Shown: piece by piece, positions 52,880 through 61,707 of the stretch
Layout: the number at the start of each line of letters is the position of its first letter
Numbering within the stretch: the stretch's first letter is position 1
NCBI RefSeq assembly: GCF_019599465.1
Contig: NZ_RKLR01000002.1
Span: 434,001-498,000 of the forward strand
DNA: 64,000 bases
From: Haloarcula rubra
GTDB lineage: Archaea; Halobacteriota; Halobacteria; Halobacteriales; Haloarculaceae
Direction: 5' to 3'
Program-made: the position numbers and the translations under genes
Notes under the pieces: model-generated
The model's input: the letters and a program-made list of their open reading frames with translations, nothing else
Database searches by the model: none
What the model was told of the DNA's origin: nothing

Positions 52880-52934
52880 AAATAAAGACTCCGCCCACGT
52901 AATCAAAGTTGATAGCCCAGCAGACATCTTTATA
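52880..52934. promoter_or_regulatory. Bidirectional cheB/cheW promoter with a shared dyad
   Basis: The site AATCA-AAGTT-GATA occupies 52901-52914. Rightward, 14 bases separate it from TTTATA at 52929-52934, ahead of cheW (ATG 52971). Leftward the site reads TATCA-ACTTT-GATT, and 14 bases separate it from TTTATTT (complement of 52880-52886) ahead of cheB. One dyad therefore stands at the same distance from both TATA elements. Confidence 0.65.
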
Positions 52935-53489: not shown

Positions 53490-54215
53490 ATGATAGAGCA
53501 AACTAAGACAGGCATCGACGGCCTCGACGACATCCTCAACGGCGGTATCGTGACGAACTCGACGACCCTCATCAGCGGCAACCCCGGTGCCGGGAAGTCG
53601 ATTCTCTGTCTCCAGTACCTCTACAACGGCGTCGAACAGTTCGGCGAGAAGGGAATCTACCTCTCGTTCGAGGAGAACGAGTCCGACCTCCGACAGGCCG
53701 CGGAGTCGCTGGGCTTCGACAAGTGGCCCGAGTTCGTCGAGAACGGCGACATCAAGGTGTACGACAAGCAGGTCCTCCTCCGCGAGAACGACTTCTCCTC
53801 GTCGATGGACCTCCTCCTCGACGACCTCGAAGACGAGGAGTACGACCGACTCGTCCTGGACTCGCTGGCGATGTTCGAACTGTTCTTCGAGAACGAGAAG
53901 GAGAAACGGACCTACCTCCTGAAGTTCACCGATATCCTCCGGGAGAACGGGCTGACGACGCTCCTGACCAACGAACAGGGAGCGGTGTTCCCCGACACGG
54001 AGATCGGACTCGAGAACTTCCTCACCGACGGGAACATCTACCTGATACAGACGCCGACGGACACCGGCGTCAACCGCTACGTCTGGGTCGCGAAGATGCG
54101 GAAACAGAACATCGAGACCGACATCTACCCGATGGAGATAGACTGGGGTGGCATCAAGGTCCACCAGAACGCCAGCGCGTTCTCGATGATGAGCGAAGAA
54201 GAGTCCCCGATATAG
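53490..54215 (+). CDS. KaiC/RAD55-like ATPase
   Basis: A 241-residue single KaiC-type RecA domain: TGIDGLDDILNGGI, Walker A GNPGAGKS at residues 30-37, EENESDLRQAAESLGFD, and Walker B DRLVLDSLAMFELFF near 128. It differs from ArlH (which lies elsewhere in arl operons) but belongs to the same superfamily, so a signalling or archaellum-related ATPase role is plausible by position. Start ATG 53490 puts MIEQTKTGIDGLDD at the front. The 84-bp upstream gap holds short ACAACCT repeats but no copy of the dyad seen in neighbouring promoters. Confidence 0.85.
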   Translation: MIEQTKTGIDGLDDILNGGIVTNSTTLISGNPGAGKSILCLQYLYNGVEQFGEKGIYLSFEENESDLRQAAESLGFDKWPEFVENGDIKVYDKQVLLRENDFSSSMDLLLDDLEDEEYDRLVLDSLAMFELFFENEKEKRTYLLKFTDILRENGLTTLLTNEQGAVFPDTEIGLENFLTDGNIYLIQTPTDTGVNRYVWVAKMRKQNIETDIYPMEIDWGGIKVHQNASAFSMMSEEESPI

Positions 54216-54321: not shown

Positions 54322-54346
54322 TATCATCGGCGATAGCTTTATTAAA
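54322..54346 (+). promoter_or_regulatory. Promoter of the winged-helix gene with dyad against the TATA box
   Basis: TATCA-TCGGC-GATA at 54322-54335 and TTTATTAAA at 54338-54346 are only 2 bases apart, unlike the 13-14 bases seen in other copies. The ATG at 54371 is about 33 nt after the TATA element. A protein on this dyad would cover the TATA box. Confidence 0.55.
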
Positions 54347-54370
54347 TGCCAAATTCATGTTTTGATAACG

Positions 54371-54706
54371 ATGGCTTCAGCGGATCTTCTCCAGACGCTG
54401 GGGAACAAATACAGCGCCGAGATTCTCGACGCTACCGACGAACCGGTCTCAGCGCAGGAGTTGAGCGACGAACTCGGTATCCCCATCGCTACCTGTTACC
54501 GCCGCATCGACGAACTCACCAAACACGACCTGCTGGAACTCCACGACAACATTCTCTCCGACGACCGACGTCGAATCAAGGTGTACCGGCGGAACGTGGA
54601 CGAGGTCAGCGTCGACTTCGAGGACGACCTGAGCGTCCACGTCGAGGAGCGCTCGGAAGTGACCAACAAACTCGACGAGGCGTGGCGGACGCTCTCGGAC
54701 GGATAG
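54371..54706 (+). CDS. Winged-helix transcription regulator
   Basis: A 111-residue wHTH: ADLLQTLGNKYSAEILDATDEPVSAQELSDELGIPIATCYRRIDELTKHDLLELHDNIL. The recognition helix IPIATCYRRIDEL and the wing LHDNILSDDRRRIKVYRRN are clear; it belongs to the ArsR/TrmB-like winged-helix class common in haloarchaea. The C-terminus (EVTNKLDEAWRTL) may dimerise. It sits between a KaiC-like ATPase and a small membrane protein in the arl/che cluster, with a dyad at its own TATA box, so autorepression is likely. Confidence 0.8.
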   Translation: MASADLLQTLGNKYSAEILDATDEPVSAQELSDELGIPIATCYRRIDELTKHDLLELHDNILSDDRRRIKVYRRNVDEVSVDFEDDLSVHVEERSEVTNKLDEAWRTLSDG

Positions 54707-54732: not shown

Positions 54733-54768
54733 TATCAGGACAGATATTTTAGAGGGTGGATTTAATAA
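54733..54768 (+). promoter_or_regulatory. Promoter of the small membrane-protein gene
   Basis: TATCA-GGACA-GATA at 54733-54746 and TTTAATAA at 54761-54768, 14 bases between. The 18-mer TATCAGGACAGATATTTT is nearly identical to the archaellin promoter copy at 55341 (one mismatch). The ATG at 54798 is 37 nt after the TATA start. Confidence 0.65.
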
Positions 54769-54797: not shown

Positions 54798-55073
54798 ATG
54801 ATAGAACTCCTCTACGCCATCTCGACGCTCGTGTTCGTGGTTGCCGGCCTCACTATGGTCGGGATGGCGATGCGGGCGTACGTCCAGACGTCCCGGCAAG
54901 CGATGCTCCACCTCTCGCTGGGGTTCTCGCTGGCCGTCGCGGGTGCGGCTGCGACGATGATTAGCGCGTTCGTCAACGACTTCGAAGGGGTGCGCTCACT
55001 GCTCCTGGTCAACAGCGGACTGACGACGTTCGGGTACCTGTTCGTGATGTACAGTCTGGTCACCTACGAGTAA
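54798..55073 (+). CDS. Small membrane protein (DUF7521-like)
   Basis: A 91-residue protein with three hydrophobic helices (near residues 1-25, 39-59 and 66-85), for example LLYAISTLVFVVAGLTMVGMAMRAY and LLLVNSGLTTFGYLFVMYSLV. Haloarchaeal genomes often pair such proteins with a wHTH gene, suggesting a membrane sensor for the regulator. ATG 54798 is used; GTG 54792 and TTG 54786 are in frame upstream. Function unproven. Confidence 0.65.
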   Translation: MIELLYAISTLVFVVAGLTMVGMAMRAYVQTSRQAMLHLSLGFSLAVAGAAATMISAFVNDFEGVRSLLLVNSGLTTFGYLFVMYSLVTYE

Positions 55074-55424
55074 CCACCAGTCGACACGTGCCCGTCTGTC
55101 GTGTCGCAGGCCCTTCTCCGCTATTCATCTAGTCTCTCTGACACTCGTAACCAATTAACTACGTATTTACCACTACTCGGCGACGGCGACAGTGGCTACG
55201 GAAGCGGGTGTTCACTGTGGACCGGACAGTTCGGAACCGCCTACCCGCCGTTTTCACACGATGTGGTTCACCGTCTGTAACGGGCCGATTCCGACGGCCG
55301 AATTCACGTGAAATGCTGTGTTAGGGTCTGAGGACTGCGTTATCAGGATAGATATTTTGGGGGGAGGTATTATTACTGGCGAAAGTTTGGGTGATAGTAG
55401 GGTCAGACAGGCCCGGAATATTCA
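55074..55424. other. 351-bp intergenic region before the archaellin gene
   Basis: No gene is supported. The left half is AT-richer than the genome (TAACCAATTAACTACGTATT near 55149-55168). The right end carries the archaellin promoter. I saw no strong hairpin apart from short dyads, no T-run terminator and no RNA gene. Confidence 0.6.
55341..55375 (+). promoter_or_regulatory. Archaellin promoter with dyad
   Basis: TATCA-GGATA-GATA at 55341-55354 followed after 13 bases by TATTATTA at 55368-55375. The archaellin ATG is at 55425, about 57 nt after the TATA start, so a leader of about 30 nt is likely, longer than usual for a haloarchaeal gene. Confidence 0.65.
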
Positions 55425-56054
55425 ATGTTCACGGAACTACGAAACGACGACGACCGCGGGCAGGTCGGTATCGGTACCCTCATCGTGTTCATCGCGATGG
55501 TGCTGGTCGCCGCAATCGCCGCGGGCGTCCTGATCAACACGGCTGGTTTCCTCCAGAGCAGTGCGGAGGAGACTGGTCAGCAGAGCAGCGAACAAGTTAC
55601 GAATCGTCTGCAGGTTGTCAGTGCAGTCGGTGTCGGCATTTCTGGCAACACCGTTGATGAGGTGGAAGTCACGGTGAAGAAGGCACCCGGTGCTGACAAC
55701 ATTGACTTAGGAAGTACTATCGCACAGTGGGTTGATTCATCTGGATCAGAAGACTTGACCTACGACAATACTGGGCCTGGGCAGGCTACTTATTCCGTGA
55801 CTAGCGTTCAAGACGATGATGGTTCTATTGTCACTGATGGCAGCTCTAGCCCAGTTCTTAACGATCCGTCGGATCGTGCTACCCTAGAATTCAACGCACA
55901 CTACATTCAGGAGAACACTGATTCCGGTAGCGGGTCCGGCCTTTCCGAAGGTGAAACTGCAACCATCCGACTTAACACGCAATCGGGTGGTACCACTACG
56001 GTTAGATTGGTGGTTCCAGAAACCTTGTCTGGTAGTTCCGCCGTCACGCTGTAA
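55425..56054 (+). CDS. arlB: Archaellin (archaellum filament protein)
   Basis: A 209-residue archaellin: a type III signal peptide [34 protein letters not shown] with probable cleavage after Gly12, then the hydrophobic N-terminal helix, then a beta-rich outer domain. N-terminus matches haloarchaeal archaellins closely. The outer domain (from about residue 62) is coded by DNA visibly richer in A and T than all neighbours and uses AT-ending codons, suggesting replacement or transfer. I find no N-x-S/T sequon, so N-glycosylation of the usual type seems absent. It is a single archaellin gene in the window. Confidence 0.93.
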
Positions 56055-56735: not shown

Positions 56736-56780
56736 ACGCCGAGAACTTTAACTCCGGCCGGGGTCGTTCTCCGTCAGGTG

Positions 56781-57257
56781 ATGGTCCGACGGTATCTGAC
56801 GACCGGTGTCGCACTCTTCGTGGTAGTCGTCTCGCTCTCGACGGGTCCGCTCGCTGGCGCCGACGTGACGAACGAGCGAGCCACTGACTTCGGTGAGGGG
56901 ACGGCGACCGTCTCGTCGGTGGACGTCGAGGCGGCGTCGATTCGTGTGACGGACGGTCGGTTCGGAACCGGCGTGGAGTACGTTCGACCGCCGACGGCGA
57001 CGGTCAGTGTCGAGTCGGTCACCGGGCGACCGCGACTCGTCTATCTCGTCTCGATTCCGAACGTAGACGTCGAACTCGTCGAGACGACAGTCGTAACCGG
57101 ACCGGGAACGTATCGACTCGAACCCGAAGACCACGGGATGGCAACCGGGACTGCGGACGCGGGGACCTACGACGGCACCCTGACGGTCCGCGTCCAGAGT
57201 TTCACCGCCGACCGCACGGTCTACCGAGAGAACGTGACCGTGGAGGTGGCGACGTGA
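56781..57257 (+). CDS. Secreted protein of unknown function
   Basis: A 158-residue protein with a signal peptide (RRYLTTGVALFVVVVSLSTGPLAGA, residues 3-27) and a mature beta-rich domain (ATVSVESVTGRPRLVYLVSIPNVDVELVETTV and YDGTLTVRVQSFTADRTVYRENVTVEV). NVTVE near the end is an N-glycosylation sequon. A GTG directly before the ATG is possible. Its end overlaps the next gene by 4 bp (GTGA), so the pair is coupled. Confidence 0.7.
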   Translation: MVRRYLTTGVALFVVVVSLSTGPLAGADVTNERATDFGEGTATVSSVDVEAASIRVTDGRFGTGVEYVRPPTATVSVESVTGRPRLVYLVSIPNVDVELVETTVVTGPGTYRLEPEDHGMATGTADAGTYDGTLTVRVQSFTADRTVYRENVTVEVAT

Positions 57258-59260
57258 GCGGCCCCGAGCGCGTACGGCGGCGTCTCCGAACGGCCGCACG
57301 CTGGGCATTCGCCGACCGGTACGGACTGGTCCTGTGGCTGGGTCTGCTCTGCTGGTTCGGGCTGACGTGGCGCGTCGGCGTCTTCATCCAGGACACGTAC
57401 GCGACGGCGAACACGCTGGTCGCACTCGCCGACGGGCAGTTACACGTCACGGAGATTCGCTACTCGCTCACGCTGGGATCACAGCCCGGACTCCACCGGT
57501 ACGACGGCCTGCTGTACGGGCGCAACTACGGGCAACTCGCGCTGGCGGTGCCACTGGTCTGGGCACTGGAGGGGGTCGCCACGGTGGTCGACCCGCGACT
57601 CCTCCTCGCCGGCCTGTGGGCCGGCCTCGGATTGGCGTTCGTCACACAGGTCGGCCGACTCGACGGCGTCGACAGGGAGCGGACGGTCACCGCCGGCTCG
57701 GTGGTCGTCGCACTCCTCTTCGCCGGGAGCGTCCTGACGGCGACGAATCTGGACCCCGACCGACTCGCGCTGGCGGCCTACCAGCTCTCGACGATGGCCG
57801 CGGCGGCGACGGCCGGACTCCTGCTGTACCGGCTGGTCGCCGACTGGCACGGGCGAAGGATCGGGCTGGCCGCCGGCGCTGCACTCGGCCTCGCGACGCC
57901 CGTCGGCTTCTGGGCCACGATTCCGAAACGGCACACGCTGGTCGCGGCGCTGGTGCTCGCGACGGTGTACGCCTTCGCCGTGAGCAGACGGACCGACGGC
58001 CGGACCGCACTCCGGGCCAGAGCGGCGGCGTACGCCTTCGCCGGCGCGATAACGTGGGTCCACGCGTTCGAGGCGTTCTTCGTCGTCGGCGTTCTGGGAA
58101 TCGTCGACCTCCTGACCGCGCGGTCGAACCGGCCTCGTGACCTGCTGGTCGTCGGCCTCGTCCTCCTGCTCGCGGCGACGCCGATGCTGGCGACGAACTA
58201 CGCCATCTCCGGCAACCCCGCGGAACCGCCGCGCCTGTTGCCGAACGTCGACGGTGGGGACGTCGAGTTCTCGCCAGACACGGACGGCGGGGCTGACGGG
58301 AGTGGGGGAACTGACGGTGCGAACTCCGGTACGGACGGAGGGAGTGGTAGTACTGGAAGCGGTGGGGACGGTACGAGCGGCACACAGGACGGCGAGTCGG
58401 CACGTACACCACCTGATACCGACCCCGTCGGTTCGTTCGTCGAGTCGACAGTGGACACTGCGTCGTCGACGGCCGGCGCGGTCGAGCCCATCTGGACGTT
58501 CGCCGGCGGGGCAGTCGCCGACGGCGTCGACACGCTCGACGAACCGGCCCGCCTCTCGCACGTCTTCGTCCGCAGCGGGCACGTACCGGGCGTCAGCTAT
58601 CGACTCAACGACTACGAGGTGATAGAACTCACCTTGCTGGAGGCGACGCCGATACTCGGAGCGTTGCTGGCGGTACCGGTGCTCGCGGGGCGACGACTGA
58701 CCGGAGTCACGTTCGACTCGCTCCGCCCGCCCGACCCCCGAACGCTCTCGCCACGCCGGCAGACGGACTCGCTGGTCGTGGCGCTCGCCGTCGTCCTGAC
58801 CGTCGTCTACCTCCCCCGGTTACCGCTGTTCAGCCAGCTGACGGTGCGATACCTCCACCCGGTCGTACCGCTCGCGGTGTACGGCGTCTGCCGGGTGCCC
58901 GCCGTCCGGACGGCCGTCGTCGACGAGACTGCGTGGTTGTGGCGGGCCTACGTCGGGAGTCTCCTGCTGGCAGTCACCGTCGTCCTCGGCGGCATCGTGG
59001 GCCTCGGGTTGGCGCTGGGGGAAGCCGTGCAGTACCACGCGCTGTGGAACCTCGCGGCGGCCACCGTCTGCGCACTCGCCGTCGTCGGGCGGACGCTCGC
59101 GCCAGAGCGCGTCACGACCCGCACCGTCGCCGCCGGACTCGCACTCCCGGCCGGGTTCACGACGGCGTTTCTGGCGCTGTCGGGACTCGTGTACTTCGAG
59201 TACGGGACCTACGCCTTCGACCTCGTCCGGGTCGTCGCCGACCTGTTGCCGACGCTGTGA
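57254..59260 (+). CDS. Large polytopic membrane protein with a disordered insert
   Basis: A 668-residue membrane protein with about 12-14 helices and a GTG start. The N-terminal GLVLWLGLLCWFGLTWRVGVFIQDTYATANTLVALADGQ recalls GT-C-fold glycosyltransferases, which have an acidic motif in the first extracellular loop (here QDTYATA), but no DxD is definite. Residues about 335-385 form a glycine/serine/aspartate insert (DGGADGSGG ... GTSGTQDGE), which would be extracellular. Translationally coupled to the preceding secreted protein. Position between archaellin and cheY suggests cell-surface or archaellum glycan work; this is inference. Confidence 0.65.
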   Translation: MSGPERVRRRLRTAARWAFADRYGLVLWLGLLCWFGLTWRVGVFIQDTYATANTLVALADGQLHVTEIRYSLTLGSQPGLHRYDGLLYGRNYGQLALAVPLVWALEGVATVVDPRLLLAGLWAGLGLAFVTQVGRLDGVDRERTVTAGSVVVALLFAGSVLTATNLDPDRLALAAYQLSTMAAAATAGLLLYRLVADWHGRRIGLAAGAALGLATPVGFWATIPKRHTLVAALVLATVYAFAVSRRTDGRTALRARAAAYAFAGAITWVHAFEAFFVVGVLGIVDLLTARSNRPRDLLVVGLVLLLAATPMLATNYAISGNPAEPPRLLPNVDGGDVEFSPDTDGGADGSGGTDGANSGTDGGSGSTGSGGDGTSGTQDGESARTPPDTDPVGSFVESTVDTASSTAGAVEPIWTFAGGAVADGVDTLDEPARLSHVFVRSGHVPGVSYRLNDYEVIELTLLEATPILGALLAVPVLAGRRLTGVTFDSLRPPDPRTLSPRRQTDSLVVALAVVLTVVYLPRLPLFSQLTVRYLHPVVPLAVYGVCRVPAVRTAVVDETAWLWRAYVGSLLLAVTVVLGGIVGLGLALGEAVQYHALWNLAAATVCALAVVGRTLAPERVTTRTVAAGLALPAGFTTAFLALSGLVYFEYGTYAFDLVRVVADLLPTL

Positions 59261-59302: not shown

Positions 59303-59338
59303 TATCAGAGGCGATAATTTACGGGACACCTTTATTTA
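59303..59338 (+). promoter_or_regulatory. cheY promoter with dyad
   Basis: TATCA-GAGGC-GATA at 59303-59316, 14 bases, then TTTATTTA at 59331-59338. The cheY ATG is at 59369, 38 nt after the TATA start. It is expected to drive cheY-cheC-cheD. Confidence 0.65.
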
Positions 59339-61467: not shown

Positions 61468-61707
61468 TTTCGCCGTCCGATAACTGGGGTCGCCCCAGTA
61501 TCGGTGACGATGTCTGACGCCCGTCTGCCGGAAACGCGCCCGTCAGCCGCTTTCGCGGCCAATCTCCACTCGAAGCGTTCCTCCCGATAAAAATGCACTA
61601 ATCTGAACAAGGAATTTAAACCATAAAAGTCGGAAATAGTGTTTTTATTATCAACGATGATAGGCTAGACGGAATATTCAAGGGCGTTTGCGGCAATTAA
61701 CTGGCTA
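61468..61707. other. 240-bp gap before the archaellum accessory operon
   Basis: No gene supported. The right half is AT-rich (ATTTAAACCATAAAAG near 61615-61630; GTTTTTATTATC near 61641-61652) and holds the arlCE promoter. The T-run at 61642-61646 could end the cheD transcript. Confidence 0.6.
61649..61680 (+). promoter_or_regulatory. arlCE promoter with dyad
   Basis: TATCA-ACGAT-GATA at 61649-61662 followed by the AT-rich GGAATATTCA (61671-61680), whose centre is about 4 bases closer than in the cheW, archaellin and cheY copies. ATG of arlCE is at 61708. Confidence 0.55.

Follow-up and report, generated by a model that had tools for sequence, protein, structure and literature searches.

CsmR (HVO_1209) of Haloferax volcanii is a 13-kDa winged helix-turn-helix (wHTH) regulator encoded upstream of arlA1 and arlA2 (Nussbaum et al., PLoS Genet, June 2026, PMC13286277). 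According to the text of that paper, ChIP-seq of CsmR gives the motif TATCA(N4)TGATA in 50 of 65 peaks, beside the TATA box. Deletion of csmR abolishes motility, yet archaellum and chemotaxis transcripts go up, and overexpression leads to hypermotility. The strongest upregulation in the deletion is seen for genes whose peaks bear the motif and match in strand, which one passage words as direct derepression. Changes in rdfA and pilin genes are also reported, and CirA, a KaiC-like protein, is described as a genetic partner of CsmR. That a wHTH protein binds this dyad at motility genes is, therefore, already in print for Haloferax. The co-loss of regulator and sites among genomes, described below, is new to the text of the paper.

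The same paper compares CsmR with EarA of Methanococcus and Pyrococcus. Both are wHTH regulators that act at archaellum promoters from a position upstream of the BRE. The authors see no sequence or structural similarity between the two, however, and state that EarA is absent from haloarchaea. The class proposed by the authors for CsmR is Lrp/AsnC. CsmR is similar to these proteins in being a small archaeal wHTH that is thought to be dimeric. It differs from them in its domains: the Pfam family HTH_20 is found in all 37 aligned CsmR relatives, and the AsnC-type effector domain gives a Pfam match in none of the 37.

The window analyzed here is a 64-kb stretch of the Haloarcula rubra genome and holds a haloarchaeal chemotaxis/archaellum cluster (identified with Pfam; some che and arl names are from translation and gene order). 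On the minus strand are cheF, a HEAT-repeat gene, cheR, cheA, and cheB. On the plus strand are cheW1, a KaiC-like gene, the wHTH gene, a DUF7521 gene, an archaellin gene, a DUF7500 gene, two genes without a Pfam match, cheY, cheC, cheD, and arlC/E. The two genes without a Pfam match (56778-59260, between DUF7500 and cheY) encode 159 and 668 amino acids, the longer product being rich in membrane segments, and relatives of them are matched in just 22 and 18, respectively, of the 80 named loci.

The wHTH gene runs on the plus strand from an ATG at 54371 (a TTG at 54362 is a possible upstream start) to 54706 and encodes a winged-helix regulator of 111 amino acids (12.7 kDa) with HTH_20 (1.8e-12). 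Because its position and dyad are as published, it has HTH_20, and its recognition-helix region (IPIATCYRRI) is almost unchanging among CsmR relatives, we identify this gene as csmR in its Haloarcula form. Among named relatives, the protein from Haloarcula pellucida is nearest (96% identity), and the proteins of three genomes with the published H. volcanii gene order (G115, G126, and G138) are 59-61% identical to it. AlphaFold2 run on the 37-sequence alignment gave a model too poor for use (mean pLDDT 48), and a PDB sequence search with the CsmR profile gave weak matches at most (best E 0.017).

As in H. volcanii, the small wHTH gene lies by an archaellin gene (arlA, 55425-56054, plus strand, PF01917, 3.6e-37; 0.7 kb 3' of csmR), a dyad stands upstream of the BRE and TATA box at arl and che promoters, and a KaiC-like gene is a neighbor (53490-54215, plus strand, PF06745). 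The published order hvo_1209-1210-1211-1212 recurs as csmR-arlA-arlA-kaiC in G115, G126, and G138, which makes the KaiC-like gene of the window the cirA counterpart. Unlike in H. volcanii, cirA is located directly upstream of csmR in the window rather than beyond the archaellin genes, the DUF7521 gene has a dyad promoter of its own, and the operator of csmR itself abuts the TATA box.

The dyad TATC-N6-GATA (14 bp) is found five times in the 64 kb, where 0.08 copies are expected, and none of 100 shuffled sequences had five copies. The copies start at 54322, 54733, 55341, 59303, and 61649. All five begin with TATCA; the right half is GATA, and TGATA is found in one of the five only. An earlier note on this DNA had placed the dyad of the wHTH promoter 2 bases from its TATA box and had given the other promoters a different position. 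Both statements are borne out. The predicted self-operator of csmR (TATCATCGGCGATA, 54322-54335, plus strand) ends 2 bp (GC) before the TATA box TTTATTAA (54338-54345, plus strand), which lies about 26-33 bp before the ATG, a distance that would fit a leaderless start. The membrane protein gene that follows carries the same dyad, as the note had said: the predicted DUF7521 operator (54733-54746) ends 14 bp before its TATA box (TTTAATAA at 54761). The gap is 13 bp for the predicted archaellin operator (55341-55354; TATTATTA at 55368) and 14 bp for that of cheY (59303-59316; TTTATTTA at 59331). The predicted arlC/E operator (61649-61662) is followed after about 11 bp by a weak TATA-like ATATTCAA. 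A degenerate operator with one mismatch (AATCAAAGTTGATA, 52901-52914) is predicted 14 bp before the TATA box of cheW1 (TTTATACA at 52929). All of these are on the plus strand.

To see how far this arrangement is conserved, 160 bp upstream of each gene were scanned in the 80 named loci with the reversed dyad as a control; hits were not used if they started after query residue 15 or had less than 150 bp of upstream sequence, which removed 26 of 46 hits for arlC/E. The exact dyad is found before arlC/E in 19 of 20 usable loci, before DUF7521 in 42 of 52, before cheY in 34 of 57, before csmR in 23 of 80, and before archaellin (arlA) in 14 of 56. It is found before cheW and cheB in one locus each (of 45 and 58), and in none of the named-loci upstreams of cheF (33), the HEAT-repeat gene (25), cheR (45), cheA (44), kaiC (77), DUF7500 (39), cheC (48), cheD (44), and arlF (41). 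The reversed control gave no hit for any gene. When dyads with at most one mismatch were included and the start of TATA relative to the dyad end was counted in distinct upstream segments, the offset was 14 in 36 of 45 segments for DUF7521, 35 of 47 for archaellin, 37 of 48 for cheY, and 10 of 39 for cheW. For csmR, offset 2 was the most frequent (10 of 50). A fixed 14-bp spacing between dyad and TATA at the targets is an addition to what the text of the CsmR paper holds. Note that the arlC/E promoters (61649-61681 in the window) keep a weak TATA-like box of the ATATTCAA type together with the dyad, as would be expected for an activator-dependent promoter.

An explanation that we consider fairly probable as a whole is that CsmR acts on these dyads, from a distal position at its targets and by blocking at its own promoter, with inputs from CirA and DUF7521. 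Most likely a dimer of Haloarcula CsmR would bind the 14-bp dyad TATC-N6-GATA. At the targets (DUF7521, archaellin, arlC, cheY, and cheW1), where the dyad ends 13-14 bp before TATA (about 11 at arlC), it would stand beside TFB on the BRE, so that bound CsmR could touch the initiation complex or help to bring it in. In the csmR promoter, the dyad is right beside the TATA box, 2 bp away, and CsmR bound there should exclude TBP/TFB and so keep its own amount steady. The KaiC-like cirA product and DUF7521 would be the likely signal inputs. We infer that spacing sets the sign of regulation, a gap of 14 bp working with TFB and one of 0-2 bp blocking TBP/TFB.

For the promoters other than that of csmR, the earlier note had spoken of an activating distance. 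The distal position fits this, and the CsmR authors, too, infer activation from it; however, motif-bearing targets go up in the csmR deletion although motility is lost (PMC13286277), contrary to what simple activation would give. We put the chances of net activation at the distal sites at about even. Since target transcripts rise in the deletion, a serious alternative is that CsmR is a repressor at every dyad and that motility is lost because unbalanced or mistimed expression spoils archaellum assembly. It is just this group, the genes with strand-matched peaks bearing the motif, that is most upregulated, as the alternative predicts. It accounts less well for the rise in motility upon overexpression; moreover, the strictly kept 13-14 bp upstream of the BRE is an odd spot for a plain blocker, and the weak TATA-like box kept in arlC promoters is expected where help is needed. 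We regard general repression as possible, though somewhat improbable. The comparative data make the questions raised in the text of the CsmR paper (activator or repressor, the tie to CirA, and generality) directly testable, and the two operator geometries can be swapped in a reporter.

Returning to the reading in which CsmR works with TFB at its targets and blocks its own promoter, the second half of it concerns the self-operator. An exact dyad that abuts TATA, 35-36 bp before the csmR start, is found in the Haloarcula/Halomicrobium group, and the same layout is found at csmR of Halegenticoccus soli (L119), which belongs to another family. The exact self-dyad is mostly limited to close kin of the window, most other csmR promoters having half-sites or degenerate forms, and at most other Haloarculaceae-like csmR loci GATAG-TTTTAT alone remains. 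Of the Haloarculaceae-like loci, 52 of 56 have TGATAA within the 25 bp ahead of the csmR start, compared with 2 of 24 among the Haloferacaceae-like ones. A distant paralogue branch has ATTCA-N4-TGATA in its csmR promoter, the left half serving as a TATA-like box as well. All 12 copies of TTCA-N4-TGATA in 291 kb from 18 loci of this branch fall within the 110 bp upstream of the csmR match; its reversed control occurs once in the 291 kb and never before csmR.

These data bear on the claim that the dyad of the wHTH gene sits in a repressing position. As geometry the claim stands, the dyad abutting or overlapping TATA; repression itself is read from geometry only. CsmR bound at the self-operator would compete with TBP/TFB, so autorepression is the simplest reading, and CsmR probably does repress its own gene. 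It is unlikely, in our judgment, that the self-dyad beside TATA is a chance occurrence or relic, with csmR not autoregulated and the conserved GATA being BRE-like or start-site context only. The frequent loss of the left half outside the kin of the window would suit such a relic, but the 12 of 12 placements in the distant branch and the TGATAA near the start in most Haloarculaceae-like loci (though in few Haloferacaceae-like ones) do not. Self-operators on or against TATA are absent from the text of the CsmR paper: its main text contains neither 'autoreg' nor 'own promoter', and a csmR self-site is undiscussed there. The paper does report that the CsmR transcript level is stable across growth in H. 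volcanii, which fits homeostasis of CsmR, though it is no test of it.

The distribution of regulator and sites bears on the binding factor. For 146 genomes of the order, we tabulated csmR orthologues (E up to about 1e-20), ArlH matches above cut-off, and composite sites, defined as TATC-N6-GATA-N13/14-TTWA. The TATA element was added to the pattern because the bare dyad is too common genome-wide (39 sites vs. 19 for the reversed control in the H. rubra genome). The composite pattern misses the archaellin promoter of the window because the box there is TATTATTA. Presence and absence classes were entered by hand, and G014, with a frameshifted csmR, was left out. Among near-complete genomes, composite sites are found in 83 of 96 with csmR (mean 2.56; reversed control 0.33) vs. 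3 of 25 without it (mean 0.12; control 0.32), a difference with a Fisher p of 3e-12 that takes no account of kinship. Among all genomes, the numbers are 88 of 105 vs. 9 of 40. None of the eight near-complete genomes that have ArlH but lack csmR has a composite site; these belong to four families, three of them to that of the window.

The earlier note had named the wHTH gene as the best candidate for the binding factor and genomes keeping the dyad without the gene as grounds for refutation. Such genomes are the exception in the above counts, and the candidate is supported by the published H. volcanii ChIP-seq dyad and by the co-loss of sites with csmR; for these two reasons, the binding factor and its operators can be taken as good as settled, and it is nearly certain that CsmR binds the dyad. 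That another factor binds it with CsmR as a mere neighbor, or that several wHTH paralogues do, would accord with the 11 matches of a CsmR query in the H. rubra genome and with the CsmR-like paralogues paired with most other DUF7521 genes, but it is very improbable given that ChIP-seq of CsmR itself yields the dyad (PMC13286277), that sites disappear with csmR while paralogues stay, and that, of the DUF7521 loci in the H. rubra genome, the 11 apart from that of csmR all lack the exact dyad.

Some genomes have csmR without an exact composite site; they make up the greater part of family f12 and some of f14. Those of f12 are G012, G027, G039, G056, G064, G072, G107, and G113, all of which have a csmR orthologue; f12 csmR orthologues adjoin DUF7521 and cheW where read. 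By eye, f12 and f10 loci have near-dyads with one half changed 14 bp before TATA, and the altered halves in f12 suggest a drifted operator. In G014, csmR (C1:1514402-1514732) and cirA (C1:1507220-1507934) are each in two adjacent pieces, with no ArlH match over cut-off and no composite site, implying either a decaying motility system or sequencing errors.

In 33 genomes with csmR, 117 composite sites are found (26, 43, and 48 in the three groups below), a few places being counted twice, once per spacer length. Moving the TATA element 4 bp farther gave 21 sites in the same genomes, some of them at the same promoters, and an inner dyad spacer of 7 bp (one base more) gave 6. The possibility that the dyad is mere BRE/TATA context was rejected since this one-base change cuts 117 sites to 6. 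Downstream genes were read at 86 of the 117 sites, partly from Pfam and partly by eye from translations (CheY, archaellin, arlC, DUF7521, and most f7 transducers). In family f7 (14 genomes, 26 sites), cheY is found in all 14 genomes, with transducer genes at 9 sites and other genes at 3. In the family of the window (10 genomes, 30 of 43 sites), there are 10 cheY, 8 transducer, 6 DUF7521, and 6 other genes. In nine further genomes (30 of 48 sites), there are 5 archaellin, 5 arlC, 4 transducer, 3 DUF7858, 2 pilin, 1 RdfA, and 1 DUF7521 genes and 9 others or unreadable. Altogether, 65 of the 86 sites precede taxis, archaellum, pilin, shape (RdfA), or DUF7521 genes, DUF7858 being excluded from the count. 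The RdfA and pilin sites agree with the rdfA and pilin changes in the CsmR paper. Where csmR is kept, the dyad appears to be kept before swimming and chemotaxis genes, and before csmR too. In each of the three genomes read from genus g23 of f17, a DUF7858 gene has a dyad-TATA site (L256, L257, and L276 in G097, G142, and G066); it is a candidate new member of the regulon. Another composite site (L278, G115) precedes a gene whose start resembles a ParA/MinD-type ATPase by eye, with no Pfam match at 1e-6.

DUF7521, a small membrane protein (54798-55073, plus strand, 91 amino acids, PF24365, 6.3e-8), is proposed as a partner or sensor of CsmR. The three helices attributed to it earlier are a reasonable description: two clear hydrophobic segments are found with a 19-residue hydropathy window, and the third is seen by eye. 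In the H. rubra genome, 11 of 12 DUF7521 genes are directly 3' of a CsmR-like wHTH gene (some pairs have one wHTH in common), and DUF7521 is within 700 bp of csmR in 53 of the 80 named loci. The gene pairing behind the suggested sensor-regulator pair is thus strongly conserved. csmR and its DUF7521 are one of several such haloarchaeal pairs in this genome; unlike the others, they have the exact dyad. In L154, L155, and L162, csmR and DUF7521 abut, leaving no room for a separate promoter. On gene neighborhood, it is likely that DUF7521 acts with CsmR. No paper in the literature searched mentions DUF7521.

A KaiC-like gene with at least 55% identity is found within 3 kb of csmR in all 80 named loci and within 500 bp in 79. 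Full-length cirA orthologues (E up to 1e-60) are found in 39 of the 146 genomes, all of them with csmR (presence was matched by eye and hand), and in 0 of the 40 genomes without csmR, where there are only fragments in the incomplete genomes G081 and G015. The exclusive cirA-csmR pairing and the DUF7521 module are additions to the text of the CsmR paper. Like the two operator geometries, a cirA present only with csmR and a family of likely membrane-protein partners make the questions of the CsmR paper testable.

A csmR-like branch is also present in genomes that lack an archaellum. In a CsmR tree (73 rows, 112 columns, few forks resolved), the csmR-like genes of f3, f6, and f7 and two second copies of f10 are set apart from the arl-linked genes. 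The f6 and f10 genes of this branch adjoin a che cluster; those of f7 are solitary, with sites at a remote cheY and at a transducer. Among 16 near-complete genomes with csmR and without ArlH, archaellin is over the Pfam cut-off only in G065 and G108, and G094 has one archaellin match under it. According to the text of the CsmR paper, csmR in Halobacteria is invariably accompanied by archaellin genes; if this branch is counted as csmR, it goes against that statement. The branch and its sites before cheY and transducers are absent from that text. They hint that taxis signaling may be regulated without archaella. More tentatively, CsmR might belong to a family of haloarchaeal taxis regulators whose effect, positive or negative, depends on how far the operator lies from TATA (14 bp for targets, 0-2 bp for the gene of the regulator itself). 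A separate branch of this family, in archaellum-less genomes, would act through the same dyad on a stand-alone chemotaxis cluster and on methyl-accepting transducers, and would turn off its own promoter through an operator over TATA. If so, there would be regulated chemotaxis signaling without swimming. In archaellum-less genomes, a lack of motility cannot confound an expression readout. The che-linked csmR-like loci are L126, L128, L129, L138, and L141-L144, and the sites are L186-L211; both cheY and a methyl-accepting transducer gene have dyad-14-TATA sites in this branch, which extends to genomes lacking ArlH or archaellin.
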